In this document: positions 1,167-23,613 of the stretch, piece by piece
Layout: each line of letters begins with the position of its first letter
Numbering within the stretch: the first letter of the stretch is position 1
Notes under the pieces: model-generated
What the model saw: only the letters and a program-made list of their open reading frames with translations
Databases searched by the model: none
What the model was told of the DNA's origin: nothing
Program-made: the position numbers and the translations under genes
Source of the DNA: a virus
IMG/VR virus record: IMGVR_UViG_3300033233_000115
Span: 1 to 33,330 of that record
Direction: 5' to 3' (one strand)
Length of the DNA stretch: 33,330 nt

Positions 1167-2755
1167 AGAAGGCTCTCCCCTCGCTCTACCATTTCCAACA
1201 AAAAACCTTGGGTTTTCTGGCGCTCAACTAAACGCTTATACATTTTTCTTTCCGTGTTGCTACCGGACAAATTGACCACGCAGGTTGTGCGCCGCTGCCC
1301 CGGTCTGGTTACGCGGCCGCAGGCTTGAGTATAGAGGTCGTTACTATGAATACTGGTCCACCATACCACAACGGAAGCGGCAGTTAGACTTAATCCATGG
1401 CTCATGGTTTGCGGATGCGCGACGATGATCTCCAAGTCGGACTTCTCATCCTCGAACTCAAGAAATATCTCATTTCGTTCCTTGACCGGCGTGTCGCCGG
1501 TAACGATGGCCGCGCGCCAATGACGATTTAGCTCTCGCGCGATCATATGGGTCATCGACACGAAAGGCACGAAGACTAAAATCTTACCGCCAGCTTCTTC
1601 GATCACTTCTAACAAGGTTTCCATGCGTGACCCCGTATCAATCTCGTGAGGTACCCCTTCGGTGTCATACACACACCCCCCGACTATCTGTGTCGCTTTG
1701 TTTATTTTCACCCCCTCGTTTACCGCGGTAACGCGCTTGCCCTCGACCTCGGTCATGAGTTCGCGCATGAGTTCCTTCAGATGTTTGGTCTGCTCTGCCG
1801 ACAACTCCACGTCGCGGGTCTGGTAGAGCGTGGGCGGCAGGTCGATGCAGTCGTCCCGCTTGAACCGGATCGCCGGTCGCATGACCTGATGCACGATCTT
1901 GGTTGCCTCGTCGCGCGGTGTCCAGATGTAGGTTGACTGGTGGTTCATGACCAGGGAACGGAACTGGCCGAAGAACGCGGGCACCGTCGTCGGAGTCACC
2001 AAGCGGCATTGTGCGTAAGCGTCCTCGGGCGAGTTCGGCGTCGGCGTGCCGGTCATGCCCCACACCCACGGCTTCGCGAGTTCGGGTTTCTTGCGGTCGG
2101 GATAGATCAAGGTCTCCAACACCTTCCAGCGCCCCGTATTCTTGTTCCTGTACGTCGCGATCTCGTCGATTATGATGATGTCGATGTCCGACCGCGCGGC
2201 GAGTTCCTTGGCGATGACTGCAACCCCATCATGATTTAGGATATAGAAGTCGCGCGGTTGTGCGAGCAGTTTCTTGCGCCGCTCGGCCGATCCATGTAGG
2301 ACACTGAACGTGCGGTGGGTGAAGTGAACGAAGAACACATCCCCCCACACCCGTTCGAGCGTGGACAGGGGAGCGATGATCAGGGCACGGTGGCCGAGTC
2401 CGGCTTCCATCAGGTAGTCGGCGGCCCACGCGGCGGTGAGCGACTTGCCGGTGCCGATGTCGTTGAGGATGTAGCCGTGCGGGTTCGACACTGCGAACGC
2501 GGCGGTTGCCACCTGATGTGTGAAGGGAGCAGGGATGGTAGTGTGCTCGCGGGGCCACCTGTAGTATGATTCTATGGGCGACGGCACTGCGATGCCCATC
2601 ATCCCAAGCCGGATGACCTCATCGACTCCGTGTGGCATCCCCACGAACCCCGGCGCCAGTTCGAACGCGGTCGGGATGGACGTGAGGGCGCGAGGATCGT
2701 CGGTCTCGACGATGATGGCATGCAGGTCGGGGAAGATTTGGAACTGGGGGGTCAT
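1163..2755 (-). CDS. SNF2/DEAD-like DNA helicase
   Basis: Using the ATG at 2755, which forms ATGA with the upstream stop, the protein has 530 aa. It carries superfamily 2 motifs: Walker A GTGKS at about residues 101-105 in LNDIGTGKSLTAAW, motif II IIIDEIATYRN at about 194-204, motif III WGMTGTPTPNSPEDAY, and motif VI QACGRVTRPGQRR near the C-terminus. This order is typical of phage SNF2-type helicases that act with DNA polymerase and VRR-NUC nucleases in replication or recombination. A longer in-frame start at 2854 exists but would overlap the upstream gene by about 100 bases. The first 25 codons are duplicated at 3304-3385. Confidence 0.93.
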   Translation of the reverse strand: MTPQFQIFPDLHAIIVETDDPRALTSIPTAFELAPGFVGMPHGVDEVIRLGMMGIAVPSPIESYYRWPREHTTIPAPFTHQVATAAFAVSNPHGYILNDIGTGKSLTAAWAADYLMEAGLGHRALIIAPLSTLERVWGDVFFVHFTHRTFSVLHGSAERRKKLLAQPRDFYILNHDGVAVIAKELAARSDIDIIIIDEIATYRNKNTGRWKVLETLIYPDRKKPELAKPWVWGMTGTPTPNSPEDAYAQCRLVTPTTVPAFFGQFRSLVMNHQSTYIWTPRDEATKIVHQVMRPAIRFKRDDCIDLPPTLYQTRDVELSAEQTKHLKELMRELMTEVEGKRVTAVNEGVKINKATQIVGGCVYDTEGVPHEIDTGSRMETLLEVIEEAGGKILVFVPFVSMTHMIARELNRHWRAAIVTGDTPVKERNEIFLEFEDEKSDLEIIVAHPQTMSHGLSLTAASVVVWWTSIHSNDLYTQACGRVTRPGQRRTTCVVNLSGSNTERKMYKRLVERQKTQGFLLEMVERGESLL

Positions 2756-2985
2756 ATGTCGAACTTCCACGCTGAGATATAGTTGCGAACCTTTTTTGAT
2801 TCCCATGCTTGGCCGTTCTCCCAGAATAGATGATTTTCTTGGTTGAGGAGCCATGTGATTTTAGGGCGGCGACCCTTATGTTTAAGATGGGACAACAGTG
2901 CATCAACATCCCGTAGCAGAAATGTTTTCAGCCGCGCGTCTGTTCGACGGCGCGGGTGAACAATGAAGTCCCCATACTGGGTCAT
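2752..2985 (-). CDS. hypothetical protein, 77 aa
   Basis: The ATG at 2985 shares ATGA with the upstream stop and its stop shares ATGA with the helicase start. The basic protein contains RRRTDARLKTFLLRDVDALL and a Trp-containing C-terminal half. No family is recognised. Its position between a small protein and the helicase suggests co-expression with the helicase only. Confidence 0.75.
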   Translation of the reverse strand: MTQYGDFIVHPRRRTDARLKTFLLRDVDALLSHLKHKGRRPKITWLLNQENHLFWENGQAWESKKVRNYISAWKFDI

Positions 2986-3176
2986 TTTAACGCCTCGCGT
3001 GCAATCCTGACGCAGTCGTCGCCTGAAAAAGACTCGTAGTTTTCTCCTACAATACCATCTCCCCCCTGGGCTATAAGCATCACCGTAGCTTCCAAATGAA
3101 GAAGATAGTGAACCAATCTGTTAAGCCCCTCGTCAGTGTTGAGCGCACGAATAAGGTCACTGGCAGTGGGTCTCAT
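2982..3176 (-). CDS. hypothetical protein, 64 aa
   Basis: The start at 3176 (MRPTASDLIRALNTDEGL) is chosen because it forms ATGA with the upstream stop; an in-frame start at 3221 would overlap the upstream gene. The protein is mostly helical and slightly acidic, with no recognised motif. It is coupled at both ends to its neighbours. Confidence 0.75.
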   Translation of the reverse strand: MRPTASDLIRALNTDEGLNRLVHYLLHLEATVMLIAQGGDGIVGENYESFSGDDCVRIAREALK

Positions 3177-3385
3177 CTCCGCCTCATCATCCGGTGTGTC
3201 ATATCCAACCGCTCTTGGCAATCTACGCAGTGCGCCTTCCCGAGTTTCAACCGCCCCTCTGGTATCGGGTCACCACAAGTTACACAGCTTCGCCCATCAA
3301 AACTCGGGATGGACGTGAGGGCGCGAGGATCGTCGGTCTCGACGATGATGGCCTTCAGGTCGGGGAAGATTTGGAACTGGGTCAT
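3173..3385 (-). CDS. chimeric DksA/TraR-type zinc-finger protein with helicase-derived N-terminus
   Basis: This 70-aa protein starts MTQFQIFPDLKAIIVETDD, almost the same as the start of the helicase encoded downstream. After ALTSIPSFDG it changes to a C4 zinc finger, CVTCGDPIPEGRLKLGKAHC followed by VDC, of the DksA/TraR kind. The upstream neighbour has the same finger without the helicase-like head. Small C4 proteins of this type in phages are proposed RNA-polymerase-binding regulators, but finger-only proteins may do something else. The gene looks like a fusion made by copying the helicase 5' end in front of a zinc-finger gene. Confidence 0.85.
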   Translation of the reverse strand: MTQFQIFPDLKAIIVETDDPRALTSIPSFDGRSCVTCGDPIPEGRLKLGKAHCVDCQERLDMTHRMMRRR

Positions 3386-3612
3386 ACCCTGCTGTACAAA
3401 TTCCGGCGACGTTCGGTTACTGATTGACACTCGACACATCGAACGCGCCCCAGTTGGAGACGCCCTGCGGGAATAATATCACCACAATCCACGCAGGTCA
3501 GCCCGTCAAAGTCCGGGTGACTCTCCGGCGCGGACTTGCCGCGGGCACGGCGTTCAGCGTCGGCGGTCCAGAGTTCGGTTACGGCGTCGGCATTATCGGC
3601 TAGGTCAGGCAT
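3382..3612 (-). CDS. DksA/TraR C4-type zinc-finger protein
   Basis: In this 76-aa protein an acidic helical N-terminus (MPDLADNADAVTEL) leads to a C4 finger, CVDCGDIIPAGRLQLGRVRC followed by VEC. This matches the usual layout of short phage TraR/DksA-like proteins, which in known cases enter the RNA polymerase secondary channel. The ATG at 3612 overlaps the end of the previous gene by 13 bases, and the stop is coupled to the chimeric paralogue. Confidence 0.85.
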   Translation of the reverse strand: MPDLADNADAVTELWTADAERRARGKSAPESHPDFDGLTCVDCGDIIPAGRLQLGRVRCVECQSVTERRRNLYSRV

Positions 3613-4105: not shown

Positions 4106-5320
4106 TTATCCCTTCACGCACACGACTTGCTTCAGTGTATGCACGATCTCCACAAGGTCGGACTGCGCGGCCATCACCGCATCAATCGATTTGTATGCCG
4201 CCGGCGTCTCGTCCAGCACTTCGATGTCCTTACGGCACTCGACGCCCGCCGTGTCGCGCAGATGATCTTCGAGCGTGAATAACTTACGAGCAGCGGTGCG
4301 CGACATAGTACGCCCGGCACCGTGCGAGCAAGAACAAAACGACTCGCGATCGCCCTTTCCGCGAACGATGAAACTCTTGACGCCCATGCTGCCAGGGATG
4401 ATACCCATCACGCCTTCGTGCGCGTCCACAGCACCCTTGCGAGTGACCATGACGTGCGCGCCGAAGTGCTTCTCCCACGACACGTAGTTGTGATGGCAGT
4501 TGACGGCAGTCGCCCCCACGTAAGGAATGGGGTCGCGATCGAGCGAACGGTAAAGCGCCCCTAACGTTGCCTGCATCATTGTTTCGCGGTTGGACAGAGC
4601 AAACTCTTGCGCCCAATGTACCGCCTGCATGTAGTCGCGGAAGTTGTCAGAACCTTCAATGATGTAAGCAAGATCCATGTCAGGCAGCGTAATGAACCAC
4701 CGGCGCATGTCTTCCTTGGCCTTATCAATGAAGTAGCTGCCAATGGCATTGCCGATTCCACGCGAACCGGAGTGCAGCATAACCCAGACGTGCTGCGCTT
4801 CGTCCAAGCACACCTCAATGAAGTGGTTGCCGGTACCGAGCGTGCCCATGTGGCGGCCAGCACGGTCTGCCGGCTTCGACAGCTTCGGGTGCTTCTCGAC
4901 AATCTTGACAAGGTCGGCGTACCAAGTGCCGAGTTGTGGTTCACCCCACGCGCCGCGGTCATTGGCACCGCCATTATCCGTGCGACCGTGAGGCACTGCC
5001 TTCTCGATTGCCAAGCGCACGCTGTGGAGATTGTCGGGTAAATCAGACGCCATCAGATCAGTCTGCACAGCCATCATGCCACAACCAATGTCCACGCCAA
5101 CGGCGGCTGGGATGATCGCGCCCTTTGTGGCGGTAACGCTGCCGACTGTCGCGCCTTGCCCCCAATGAACATCAGGCATGCACGCGACGTGCTTGAACAC
5201 GAAGGGCATCTGAGCGAGGTTGCGAAGTTGGTTCTTCGCTTGATCCTCAACTGGTACGCCGTGCGTCCATGCTTTGATCGGTAGCGCCCCGACCGGGCCT
5301 CCAATAACTTCGAAACTCAT
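4106..5320 (-). CDS. rtcB: RtcB RNA-splicing/repair ligase
   Basis: The 404 aa are close to the length of E. coli RtcB. Hallmarks are PDVHWGQGATVG (about 49-60), GVDIGCGM with Asp77 and Cys80 as expected metal ligands, GTGNHFIEV (162-170), HSGSRG (183-188), NCHHNY (274-279) and CSHGAGR, where His333 should carry the GMP adduct. RtcB joins 2',3'-cyclic phosphate or 3'-phosphate ends to 5'-OH ends using GTP and Mn2+, repairing tRNAs cut by anticodon nucleases. Two tRNA genes lie directly upstream in the same transcript, which fits tRNA repair during infection. Every key motif is intact. Start ATG at 5320 is preceded by AGGAGAATG. Confidence 0.97.
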   Translation of the reverse strand: MSFEVIGGPVGALPIKAWTHGVPVEDQAKNQLRNLAQMPFVFKHVACMPDVHWGQGATVGSVTATKGAIIPAAVGVDIGCGMMAVQTDLMASDLPDNLHSVRLAIEKAVPHGRTDNGGANDRGAWGEPQLGTWYADLVKIVEKHPKLSKPADRAGRHMGTLGTGNHFIEVCLDEAQHVWVMLHSGSRGIGNAIGSYFIDKAKEDMRRWFITLPDMDLAYIIEGSDNFRDYMQAVHWAQEFALSNRETMMQATLGALYRSLDRDPIPYVGATAVNCHHNYVSWEKHFGAHVMVTRKGAVDAHEGVMGIIPGSMGVKSFIVRGKGDRESFCSCSHGAGRTMSRTAARKLFTLEDHLRDTAGVECRKDIEVLDETPAAYKSIDAVMAAQSDLVEIVHTLKQVVCVKG

Positions 5321-5333
5321 CTCATTCTCCTCG

Positions 5334-5416
5334 TGGTGCCGGATGAAGGACTCGAACCTTCACGCTTGCGCACTGGTTTCTAAGACCAGCGTGTCTGCCA
5401 ATTCCACCAATCCGGC
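5334..5416 (-). tRNA. tRNA-Leu (anticodon UAG)
   Basis: The minus strand folds as a class II tRNA: acceptor GCCGGAT/ATCCGGC, discriminator A and an encoded CCA (5334-5336). The anticodon stem CTGGT/ACCAG encloses loop CTTAGAA with anticodon TAG, the long variable arm is TGCGCAAGCGT, and the T-arm is GAAGG/CCTTC with TTCGAGT. It reads CUA and related Leu codons. It lies between the structured spacer and rtcB. Confidence 0.96.
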
Positions 5417-5505: not shown

Positions 5506-5582
5506 GGTCTGGGTGGTAGGATTCGAACCTACGACCTTCCGGTTCCAAGCCGGAAACGCTGACCAGGCTGCGCTACACCCAG
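5506..5582 (-). tRNA. tRNA-Pro (anticodon UGG)
   Basis: The fold has acceptor CTGGGTG/CACCCAG, discriminator A and an encoded CCA at 5506-5508. The anticodon stem TCCGG/CCGGA encloses loop CTTGGAA with anticodon TGG, and the T-loop is TTCGAAT. It decodes CCA/CCN Pro codons. Its 5' end is exactly where the promoter at 5589-5617 should start transcription. Confidence 0.96.
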
Positions 5583-14394: not shown

Positions 14395-14446
14395 CATTCC
14401 CTCCTACACAAACTTGCCGCTGCAGACCCGCGCGGCGCCGGGAAGA

Positions 14447-14599
14447 TAATTAGAAGGCCGTGCTTGCCGCCCCCAGTTGTGAGGCGGGTTCCTTTGGCAG
14501 GCGGACGATTTGTTCAGCACAGTGGCCTACTGTGCCCCCGCCCGAATGCCACTTCGAACGAGAATTGTCGCCCCTATAACAAGCCGTGCCTTCTAATTA
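14447..14599. repeat. 153-bp element with 20-bp imperfect terminal inverted repeats
   Basis: TAATTAGAAGGCCGTGCTTG (14447-14466) and CAAGCCGTGCCTTCTAATTA (14580-14599) form inverted arms: 12 paired bases, a 3x3 mismatch and 5 more pairs. Inside is a perfect hairpin GCACAGT-AGGCC-ACTGTGC. It lies between two minus-strand genes and could be a structured RNA, a miniature mobile element or an operator. No target-site duplication is obvious. One minus-strand frame is open across the whole element but lacks a start codon. Confidence 0.6.
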
Positions 14600-14603
14600 C
14601 CCT

Positions 14604-14774
14604 CTATTGCTCATCCATCTCCCACCGATCGACGAACTCCTCGATTTCCCATTCCTCGTAGTTACGTGTCGGCGGCTTGGTCAGCCACAAACCAGTTGAT
14701 CCAGCAATGTAAAATCCCACCGGCTCACTCCGGTCAATCTCCTCCATGCGCAACCACTGGCTGATCGAACTCAT
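14604..14774 (-). CDS. hypothetical acidic protein, 56 aa
   Basis: MSSISQWLRMEEIDRSEPVG followed by a beta-like middle and an acidic end (NYEEWEIEEFVDRWEMDEQ). GTG at 14789 is an alternative start. The stop is 5 bases before the inverted-repeat element. Function unknown. Confidence 0.65.
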   Translation of the reverse strand: MSSISQWLRMEEIDRSEPVGFYIAGSTGLWLTKPPTRNYEEWEIEEFVDRWEMDEQ

Positions 14775-20959: not shown

Positions 20960-21403
20960 TTACATACCAGATTTGGCACTGCCGGCGTCATTCTGCGCGC
21001 GCAAGGCAGACTGTACCTTATGCCAGTCTGTTAGCTTACCTCCCGTACGTAATAGAGTAGCTTTCATATTATTGCACGCCTTACAATCCTGCTGCAGCCC
21101 GTCAGTGCGCGGCGCGCATTTGGCATAGTCGCCGGCCGGCTTGACGCTATGGCAGGAACCACACTTTTTGCCAGTGGTAGCATACTGCGCGGCTTTGTCT
21201 TCTTGCCGCTTGATCTTTCGGCCGTCTTTAGTGTTCCGTTCCAGGTTGATCTGGGCAATGGTGGTAGCGCGTGCCATGTTCGCGGCTTCGCGGGCGGATA
21301 AACCGGTACAGATCGAGCATATATTGGTCATAGGTGCGTAGTCGTACATTGGTTTTGCGCGGCCACAGCATACGCATTGCAGCAAGGCATTAGTGGATAG
21401 CAT
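20960..21403 (-). CDS. zinc-ribbon protein, 147 aa
   Basis: ATG 21403 follows GAGGAGATACC. Several CxxC motifs are visible: CVCCGRAKPM (C-V-C-C), NICSICTGL, KKCGSCHSVKPAGDYAKC and DCKACNNM. This is typical of a small zinc-ribbon domain pair and may bind nucleic acid or protein. Cys-rich proteins with such CGSC-(H/x)SVKP motifs are common in phages but unassigned. Confidence 0.82.
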   Translation of the reverse strand: MLSTNALLQCVCCGRAKPMYDYAPMTNICSICTGLSAREAANMARATTIAQINLERNTKDGRKIKRQEDKAAQYATTGKKCGSCHSVKPAGDYAKCAPRTDGLQQDCKACNNMKATLLRTGGKLTDWHKVQSALRAQNDAGSAKSGM

Positions 21404-21448
21404 AGGTATCTCCTCGGAGTAGATTGTTAAGGTATGACTATTTAGTGT

Positions 21449-21477
21449 AGTATAAGTTCCTTAGTTATGGCTTTTAA
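21449..21477 (-). promoter_or_regulatory. candidate sigma70 promoter
   Basis: TTAAAA (21477-21472) and TATACT (21454-21449) are 17 bases apart on the minus strand, immediately upstream of the zinc-ribbon gene. The -35 match is weak. Confidence 0.35.
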
Positions 21478-21713
21478 AGGGGCGCAATCGAGCGCAGATG
21501 TTCGGGCACAAGCTCCAGCACTTCGGGCGGGGCCATAAGGTCGCCGCCGTCCGGGTTGGACTGCGCGTATTCGATCATGTAGCGCGCCGCCGTTGCTGCG
21601 GCAGCGTGGGCGTCAAGACCGGCGCGCGCGCCTTGATGCCCGCCGCCGAATTTCCCGGATACGGTGCTGACGTATCCCGCGCCGCGTTTGGTGATGATGA
21701 TGGTGCTACGCAT
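21474..21713 (-). CDS. hypothetical protein, 79 aa
   Basis: ATG 21713 follows GAGGAGAGCAACC. MRSTIIITKRGAGYVSTVSG, then Ala-rich and acidic ends. No family is recognised. It overlaps the end of the previous gene by 8 bases. Confidence 0.75.
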   Translation of the reverse strand: MRSTIIITKRGAGYVSTVSGKFGGGHQGARAGLDAHAAAATAARYMIEYAQSNPDGGDLMAPPEVLELVPEHLRSIAPL

Positions 21714-21975
21714 GGTTGCTCTCCTCGGAAATGTGATTTACGCCTAGCATCGCGCACGCGGATTTTTGCCACTGCAAAAGCATGCGCACCTGATCCGCGC
21801 GCTTCGGTGGCTCGACTATCCGCGCGCCTTGCAGAACGGCGTTTGCTACATCAATTGCCTGCCCGCCGGCGATCATTACAGGCCGGCCGTAACTGCTGGC
21901 CGAATGATCGGTGGTTAGATGCGCGCGCATCGTGCGTGTCTTGCCCGTGATCGGATTGGTTAAGGTGATTTTCAT
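21706..21975 (-). CDS. hypothetical protein, 89 aa
   Basis: ATG 21975 lies just after the stop of the 92-aa gene. It reads MKITLTNPITGKTRTMRAHL and includes a C-terminal helix QVRMLLQWQKSACAML. No family is recognised. A longer frame to 22125 would overlap the upstream gene and is not used. Confidence 0.7.
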   Translation of the reverse strand: MKITLTNPITGKTRTMRAHLTTDHSASSYGRPVMIAGGQAIDVANAVLQGARIVEPPKRADQVRMLLQWQKSACAMLGVNHISEESNHA

Positions 21976-21976
21976 T

Positions 21977-22255
21977 TTAATTCGCCTCGCAGTCGCCGTA
22001 GCAGTAAGAGCCGCACTTGCGGCACGGTTGGCTATGGTTGGAGCGTGCGCGATATTCGCCGAGAGTTTGCGCGCCGTCGATGTTGCGCGCGCCGTGGTAA
22101 GTCTTGGCTTTGGTCGGTGCGGCACCTACGAGCGCACGGGCTTGCTCTGCCTTGTCATCCGGCACCATCCACGATTTGCTGCTGACATCCCACTTGCCTC
22201 CGAGCGCCTTGATTTGATCCTTGACCGGATACGTGTTGCCTGTGATTGCGATCAT
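21977..22255 (-). CDS. hypothetical protein, 92 aa
   Basis: It is the first gene of the leftward unit. MIAITGNTYPVKDQIKALGG and SSKSWMVPDDKAEQARALVG are followed by a C-terminal cysteine motif CRKCGSYCYGDCEAN. This ITGNTYPVKDQIKALGGKW type of N-terminus is known in small phage proteins and is thought to be a zinc-binding module. It lies about 75 bases after the strong promoter. Confidence 0.82.
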   Translation of the reverse strand: MIAITGNTYPVKDQIKALGGKWDVSSKSWMVPDDKAEQARALVGAAPTKAKTYHGARNIDGAQTLGEYRARSNHSQPCRKCGSYCYGDCEAN

Positions 22256-22336
22256 GATTTGTTACCCCTATCTTGGTTCCGCGGCGCTCCTGGTCGGGAT
22301 CAGGTGGTGGCCGTCAAATCAGCCACCATGAATAGA

Positions 22337-22364
22337 ATTATACAGGTTTCTGCGGGCAAGTCAA
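22337..22364 (-). promoter_or_regulatory. strong leftward sigma70 promoter
   Basis: TTGACT (22364-22359) and TATAAT (22342-22337) lie 16 bases apart on the minus strand. This is the best-matched early promoter for the leftward gene cluster, with +1 near 22330 and a short leader to 22255. Confidence 0.8.
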
Positions 22365-22455
22365 CTACTATTTTTGCTGGTAAAAATGCCTTATGAATCA
22401 AGGTGCAAGTTATGTATGCAATTCCCTTTTAAAGTGCGGAAATTAGCATACCTAA

Positions 22456-22768
22456 ACTATCACTGTATTGGTTCGAGCGGCCAAACGTGCGAGTGCTGGC
22501 ATTGATTATTAAGGATAATTACTAAGACTATGATACCTAAGTGTACTATCACGGTATTTTTAGCTATCGGCACTTTTTATACGCACGTTTTTGCGCGCGA
22601 CTGTCGGGCACCCTCACTGTAGCCGTACTAAAAATACCGTGATAGTAGAGTTAGTATAGTTAGTAGTATAACTAATTATTAAATTCCCTAATGGTTTCAA
22701 CGCACTAACCCGTGGCCGTCTCGCACAAAACCGCGCAAAATCAATACAGTGATAGATTAGTGATAGAT
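22456..22768. repeat. four-copy repeat ACTATCAC(T/G)GTATT, two forward and two inverted
   Basis: Copies are at 22456-22469 (plus), 22545-22558 (plus), 22633-22646 (minus) and 22743-22756 (minus), with a half site GTGATAGAT near 22760-22768. Starts of the first three are spaced about 88-89 bp. Copies two and three lie in a perfect 20-bp inverted repeat, TACTATCACGGTATTTTTAG (22544-22563 and 22628-22647). These resemble iterons or repressor/activator sites. Confidence 0.8.
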
Positions 22769-22774
22769 ATTTGC

Positions 22775-22798
22775 ATAACTTAGTTTAACTAAAGTTAT
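22775..22798. repeat. AT-rich imperfect palindrome
   Basis: ATAACTTAGTTT followed by AACTAAAGTTAT forms an imperfect dyad next to the iteron-like repeats. Its AT content could help strand opening. Confidence 0.45.
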
Positions 22799-23005
22799 TT
22801 GTGATAACTATATGGCGATGTGGAGCTAGTGCGCCCCGGCGCCTGCAGCGCCGGCGCCTTGCCGCCAGGCTTCCCAGCCCACTACCGCCCAGCTTTTTTG
22901 CCACAAAAACGCGGGGCGGCGAGGCGTCGATGGGGGGAGCGGCTTGGCGGCCCCGGTGTGGGTTCCCCTGTCTCGCACACGACCGCCCTAATTTCAACCG
23001 CTGTA

Positions 23006-23064
23006 AATCCCTTCACAAAAAATTTTATCCCGCCCTTCTCAACCACCAGTGACAATCCCTTCAC
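23006..23064 (+). promoter_or_regulatory. direct repeats AATCCCTTCAC upstream of rightward promoter
   Basis: AATCCCTTCAC occurs at 23006-23016 and 23054-23064, 48 bp apart. The second copy ends four bases before the -35 box. Such placing suits an activator or repressor binding site. Confidence 0.5.
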
Positions 23065-23068
23065 GCCT

Positions 23069-23097
23069 TTGACAACCCCGCCGCGTTGTGTCATAAT
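23069..23097 (+). promoter_or_regulatory. strong rightward sigma70 promoter, predicted leaderless
   Basis: TTGACA (23069-23074) and CATAAT (23092-23097) are 17 bases apart. The predicted +1 is 23104, the A of the first ATG of the packaging operon, so the mRNA should start at or next to the start codon. Confidence 0.78.
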
Positions 23098-23103
23098 TTT
23101 CTC

Positions 23104-23613
23104 ATGGATACCGACATCATCCCCACCACCCCCGCGGCCGACCGCCAAACCGCGCGGCTCGCCGACGTGCCGGATTTGTACAGACAAAAGCACGAACGGC
23201 TGGCGATCGAACTCGCACTCAACATGGATGATGCTGAGGCAATTTTCCGGGGGTACCAGTACACGCCTGATGAAGCGGCGGTGCTCATAGAAAGTCCAGC
23301 GTTCGTGCTGTTGCTCGAACGAGTGACGAAGGATCTCCGTGAGAACGGCGTTACTTTTAAGGCCAAGATAAAAGCTCTCGCTGAAGAATGGTTGCCATAC
23401 GCTCACGACATCGTCACCGATCCGCTGGCCCCCACCTCCGAGCGCGGGAAGCTGATCCAGTGGGCAGCGAAGCTCGCGGGGCACGAACCGAAAGAAATTA
23501 AAGACGACAGCAGGACGGGCGGCGGGCTCACACTCAGCATCACGTTCGCCGGCCAGGCGCCGCAGCAAGTGGTATCGACGAGGGAAACTTTAACCATAGA
23601 CCAGGAGGTTTAA
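23104..23613 (+). CDS. putative terminase small subunit
   Basis: I use ATG 23104 (169 aa). It has no Shine-Dalgarno site, but the promoter places the transcript start exactly there. GTG 23086 would lie upstream of the predicted transcript start. The helical N-terminal domain (QKHERLAIELALNMDDAEAI) with EAIFRGYQYTPDEAAVL resembles the DNA-binding N-terminus of small terminases, and the C-terminal tail is beta-rich. Its place as first gene of a unit with terminase large and portal supports the call, although no direct match is known. The predicted role is recognising phage DNA and handing it to the large terminase. Confidence 0.6.
   Translation: MDTDIIPTTPAADRQTARLADVPDLYRQKHERLAIELALNMDDAEAIFRGYQYTPDEAAVLIESPAFVLLLERVTKDLRENGVTFKAKIKALAEEWLPYAHDIVTDPLAPTSERGKLIQWAAKLAGHEPKEIKDDSRTGGGLTLSITFAGQAPQQVVSTRETLTIDQEV

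Follow-up and report, generated by a model that had tools for sequence, protein, structure and literature searches.

PICI origins consist of two iteron sets placed on either side of an AT-rich stretch (PMC6092414), and the iteron origin of SaPI is recognised by the C-terminal domain of the SaPI Rep protein (PMC7581432). pRN1, whose replication protein is a primase-helicase, requires a stem-loop that is conserved in shape and not in sequence (PMC4234260). We compared with these systems a repeat array in an uncultured phage. The window, the whole stretch of DNA analysed here, measures 33,330 nt (IMG/VR virus record IMGVR_UViG_3300033233_000115, positions 1–33,330). From computational analysis of the window and its relatives, we consider the element a likely candidate for the replication origin of the phage, probably of theta type. 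This reading is favoured because the element lies at a point of divergence near the skew minimum, is symmetrical, contains AT-rich stretches and IHF-type sites and shows rapid turnover of its boxes, and because relatives encode an initiator-like helicase.

Divergent gene blocks and a nested dyad

The genes of the window are arranged in two divergent blocks separated by a non-coding gap (Table 1). The leftward block (left of ~22255) includes genes for an SNF2-type helicase, RtcB, an exonuclease, a dNMP kinase and a family-A DNA polymerase. The rightward block (from 23104) opens with a small gene and also contains TerL, portal and further genes. The labels early (leftward) and late (rightward) are inferred from these gene functions, and with that reading the array does lie between early and late units, as the original prediction had placed it. 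The first rightward gene is 80% identical in G004 and 45–57% identical in four other relatives. It gave no match in a PHROG search and is taken, by position only, as the small terminase subunit.

Both sigma70-like promoters that flank the array are directed outward, and neither overlaps any box. A third promoter match within the dyad, at 22682–22653, is weak (9/12). Rightward promoter-like sequences with the same layout occur in five relatives. In all six genomes compared for this detail (the window, G001–G004 and L012), exactly 6 bases separate the −10 hexamer from the ATG (23069–23106 in the window), which suggests that the late transcript may be leaderless.

The leftward block shows some further features. 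Two tRNA genes (Rfam; 5337–5416 and 5508–5582, minus strand) adjoin the RtcB RNA ligase gene (4106–5320). Opposite the start of the SNF2 helicase gene, the reading frame 3096–3476 (+) repeats part of the frame 2574–2846 (+), hinting at a partial duplication. A candidate structured RNA of ~160 nt lies between two leftward genes (14440–14608, minus strand), closed by a long stem (TAATTAGAAGGC/GCCTTCTAATTA) that encloses hairpins; its counterpart is at L060:10629–10798 (minus strand). G002, the only genome found in the IMG/VR search for this RNA, shares the fold with altered hairpins: 53 of 58 pairs are kept, and 8 have changed on both sides. The fold has z values of −6.7 and −5.0, and Rfam returned no match at E≤1.

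Table 1. Positions of the features in and beside the gap (window coordinates).
Feature	Position	Strand	Basis or remark
First leftward gene, 92 aa, DUF5710-like	21977..22255	−	just under Pfam cut-off
Non-coding gap, divergent gene blocks either side	22256..23103		
Leftward sigma70-like promoter, TTGACT-16-TATAAT	22337..22364	−	
Nested imperfect inverted repeat (giant dyad), ~310 bp	22452..22760		arm alignment, folding
Outer left arm with box 1 (22456–22469, ACTATCACTGTATT)	22452..22473	+	
Inner left arm with box 2 (22545–22558, ACTATCACGGTATT)	22537..22563	+	
Inner right arm with box 3 (22633–22646)	22628..22654	−	
Degenerate IHF-like site, TTTCAACGCACTA	22695..22707	+	two mismatches to WATCAANNNNTTR; relatives match the consensus better here
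Outer right arm with box 4 (22743–22756)	22739..22760	−	
Half-box GTGATAGAT, 11-bp spacing, copies 22749–22757 and 22760–22768	22749..22768	−	read from sequence
AT-rich palindrome, ATAACTTAGTTTAACTAAAGTTAT	22775..22798		read from sequence
Rightward sigma70-like promoter, TTGACA-17-CATAAT	23069..23097	+	
First rightward gene	23104..23613	+	position before TerL conserved

The array itself is real and far beyond chance. Four exact copies of the 13-mer CTATCAC(T/G)GTATT start at 22457 (+), 22546 (+), 22633 (−) and 22743 (−), the fourth without the first A (TCTATCACTGTATT). Shuffles of the window give 0.02 expected matches, and four copies were reached in 0 of 100. The original prediction had described two forward and two inverted copies, the first three about 88–89 bp apart and the inner two in a perfect 20-bp inverted repeat, with AT-rich dyads following. 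The observation was borne out: the starts are spaced by 89, 88 and 110 bp, the perfect repeat occupies 22544–22563 and 22628–22647, and an AT-rich palindrome is listed in Table 1. The inner arms measure 27 nt and are 93% complementary, and the outer arms measure 22 nt and are 91% complementary.

The original prediction had overlooked a single nested dyad of ~310 bp that contains all four boxes. When the left half was aligned with the reverse complement of the right half, 101 identities were found in 150 columns with a score of 110, whereas shuffled halves scored at most 56; the four boxes are thus the best-kept parts of one dyad. It is the most extreme fold in the window (z of −7.0 on the plus and −6.75 on the minus strand). 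In a scan for long-gap inverted repeats, run ungapped, the dyad scored 21 (the inner arms, the best of the window) and 16, against 12 for the best repeat elsewhere in the window. The description of the boxes as iteron-like fits only in part: they form a large dyad holding two pairs in inverted arrangement and not a tandem run. An AT-rich region accompanies these repeated initiator-type sites.

The same gap in relatives

Relatives were found by a TerL search (G001, locus L005; G002, L006; G003, L007; G004, L008; the more distant L009–L020), through a neighbouring gene (G005, L053) and by a genome scan (L074). The gap was compared in eight uncultured relatives: G001–G005, L012, L018 and L074. 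The folding z is striking in the window and only moderate in the relatives (−1.8 to −4.2), and the inverted-repeat score was therefore used instead. The best score in the gap was 13 in G001, 14 in G002 and G003, 16 in G004, 18 in G005, 19 in L018 and 21 in L012, and in each of these seven only 0 or 1 of 300 shuffles matched it. The repeat of L074 is weak (score 12, reached by 17 of 300 shuffles) and is still the top repeat of that locus. When whole contigs were scanned, the gap repeat ranked first in the window, G002, G004 and G005 and near the top in G001 and G003. No clear counterpart was seen in the short contigs of the distant relatives L010, L013 and L015.

The box sequences of the window and its relatives are unlike one another. 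G004, whose TerL is 94% identical to that of the window, carries the repeat and yet has no nucleotide match across ~21185–23005. As judged from these alignments, the architecture is kept at the same gap and the letters are replaced, so that the dyad is conserved in shape and not in sequence. There was no DNA-level match among cultured phages, and a plasmid search with TerL gave matches of 31–35% only.

IHF is a host DNA-bending protein. Its consensus is WATCAANNNNTTR (PMC10380432), and a 6-mer search in ten gaps returned AATCAA as the most enriched word, which led to the IHF reading; ACTATC was also enriched and is common to some genomes only. Across 12 gaps the exact consensus was observed 8 times, where 0.41 would be expected. 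In the ~315 kb of genome counted there are 17 exact sites, about half of them in the gaps. Eight genomes, including the window, share an IHF-like site that lies on the late side and points the same way (judged after flipping in G005). It mostly lies beyond the inner right arm; in G002 it is just before the right arm. Owing to its two mismatches, the site of the window is weak on its own; the outer boxes of the window (TATCACTGTATTG) are also within one mismatch of the consensus. IHF may bind the sites in the gap. A motif search of the gaps found no DnaA box.

The nearest cultured phage by TerL (37%) and portal (36%) is Pseudomonas phage Rollin (OR577172). The divergent gap of Rollin (record positions 1–1450) contains four copies of a palindromic 25-mer, AAAAGGTAG..ACTACCTTTT, together with further inverted repeats, and on its circular 61-kb map the point of convergence is roughly opposite the array. 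KPP25 (NC_024123) is related by its DNA polymerase (30%). A gap inside its early block carries AAAATTTCGTAACACGCT once forward and three times inverted, with the inverted copies 79–88 bp apart. Two more copies lie elsewhere, and the 18-bp box of KPP25 is present in two non-coding regions ~32 kb apart (L066, 6420–6832 and 38254–38300). In neither phage did any of 300 shuffles reach the inverted-repeat score, and neither record annotates the array as an origin.

The original prediction had proposed a GC-skew analysis. In the uncultured relatives that have both blocks, the cumulative AT-skew reaches its minimum at the gap or near it, and the GC-skew minimum is close to the gap in most of them. 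Skew agrees with an origin here but is confounded with gene strand: it follows gene direction and so does not separate an origin from it, and in KPP25 it tracks the strand switch and not the array.

Candidate initiator and alternative readings

A putative initiator is encoded at a distance from the gap. G001, G003 and Rollin each encode a protein of 930–990 aa that has primase-like N-terminal motifs and a DUF927 helicase. The primase part is a weak match to LigD Prim-Pol. The helicase core matches PDB entries 5dgk and 8tch (E ~1e-16), with NCBIfam Cch1 below the cut-off, and by these matches the core is related to SCCmec Cch and SaPI Rep. In the phage of the window the gene is placed by synteny only, ~1.7–5.3 kb past the left edge of the window; in G001 it is at ~25.4–28.2 kb and the gap at ~51 kb. 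The candidate origin and this gene are ~23–28 kb apart. A sequence search with the C-terminal domain returned no known DNA-binding domain, and structure prediction of this domain and the helicase half gave a mean pLDDT of 35 and no usable fold. The original prediction had correctly stated that no cognate binding protein is recognised in the window. It is a weak argument, because IHF comes from the host and the gene of the candidate initiator is expected beyond the left edge.

We propose that the inverted boxes, in two symmetrical sets, would be bound by the phage initiator, most likely this fusion of primase and DUF927 helicase, whose gene is expected near the far end of the leftward block. 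A bend on the late-gene side, made by IHF or another bending protein of the host, would bring the two box sets together. The AT-rich DNA that separates and flanks the boxes would then melt, and two helicases would be loaded facing opposite ways. Forks would leave in both directions, each co-directional with transcription.

IHF sites are found at operators, cos and attP as well, and each of these was weighed against the origin. The main rival is long-range control of transcription, in which a phage regulator would sit on the four boxes and, with an IHF bend, form a looped complex that switches the divergent blocks. The outward promoters on both sides, the IHF sites, inverted pairs that suit a looping dimer and the presence of the KPP25 repeat at two non-coding places are all in keeping with it. 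We nevertheless find it rather doubtful: no box overlaps a strong recognised promoter (sigma70-type only), the recognised rightward promoters of the relatives are hundreds of base pairs from the arms, no conserved HTH regulator was recognised beside the gap, and four operators would not need the full 310-bp dyad. The original prediction had offered an origin or a master operator. The origin half is favoured, and a simple promoter operator is the less likely because recognisable promoters flank the array without overlapping a box.

The position of the element upstream of the terminase genes could indicate a packaging start (cos or pac), where the small terminase would bind the boxes with the help of IHF, as at lambda cosB, where an IHF site accompanies repeated sites for terminase. 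We consider this improbable. G003 closes on itself inside TerL (773-bp overlap at 94%), which makes the gap internal; no examined contig ends there, and the KPP25 array is in the early block, away from the terminase genes. The very strong fold (z of −7), accompanied by folding in the relatives, would also suit transcription of the gap into a structured non-coding RNA, but both strands fold equally. Counts of G-U mismatches are 1 versus 1 in the arms of the window and 30 versus 18 for all genomes pooled, the latter not decisive. With no strand bias in the window arms, no strong promoter found reading into the dyad and no match in Rfam, such an RNA is quite improbable. A MITE, a small mobile element bounded by terminal inverted repeats, would explain ~310 non-coding base pairs with inverted ends; it is very unlikely because IMG/VR pattern scans, run with the box pair and with the inner box of 18 bp, found no other copies, and relatives carry different dyads at the same place. 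A phage attachment site, suggested by the inverted arm sites and IHF sites that lambda attP also has, is largely excluded by the absence of a tyrosine integrase (PF00589) from nine relatives, including the near-complete G001, G003, Rollin and KPP25.

Comparison with known origins

If the element is an origin, the analysis would supply a predicted origin and a predicted initiator for a whole group of uncultured phages. It would also mean that an origin architecture persists while its recognition sequence changes, even between phages whose large terminases are 94% identical. Either Rollin, as a cultured cousin, or a clone of the gap would allow a direct test.

The arrays of Rollin and KPP25, cousins by TerL or DNA polymerase, resemble this one in having AT-rich gaps and 18–26-bp boxes in inverted arrangement. 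Their box sequences are unrelated to those of the window, the KPP25 array lies within the early block and is repeated elsewhere, and the KPP25 primase belongs to a different family. In the Vibrio satellite PLE, a phage-related element, a non-coding region likewise carries a repeat array, which is a demonstrated origin (PMC7145576); it differs in its RepA_N initiator and semi-palindromic direct iterons. Repeated initiator sites with AT-rich flanks are shared with lambda ori and the iteron plasmids pSC101 and R6K gamma, and inverted repeats with lambda. pSC101 and R6K also use IHF (PMC5043065), whose consensus is enriched in the gaps of the relatives but degenerate in the window. Here there is no DnaA box, no known initiator family was recognised and the sites are widely spaced.

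pRN1 and Bordetella phage BIP-1 also combine a primase-helicase protein with a dyad kept in shape and not in sequence (PMC4234260). Their dyad is ~100 bp and adjoins the replication gene, whereas the one described here is ~310 bp, nested, built with repeated boxes and not situated 3′ of the replication gene; the helicase family is not the same either. The SaPI/PICI pri-rep-ori modules and SCCmec Cch are alike in their DUF927/Rep helicase core, in an AEP-type primase that is fused or adjacent and in two repeat sets round a centre. A helicase of the Rep/DUF927 type is encoded in G001, G003 and Rollin, and in the window's phage by synteny only. The SaPI/PICI origin directly follows the rep gene, whereas the candidate origin is far from the primase-helicase gene; it has a small number of long, inverted boxes, together with recurring IHF-type sites. 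Since one tested defining feature of each is lacking here, the element is not filed under the SaPI/PICI, pRN1 or IHF-iteron origins. A tentative possibility is a phage origin made of a giant nested palindrome with a recurring IHF bend, read by a primase-helicase of the Cch/SaPI-Rep type that is encoded tens of kb away. Its boxes would change more quickly than the genes around them, perhaps as a way to evade parasites or competitors able to recognise the origin.
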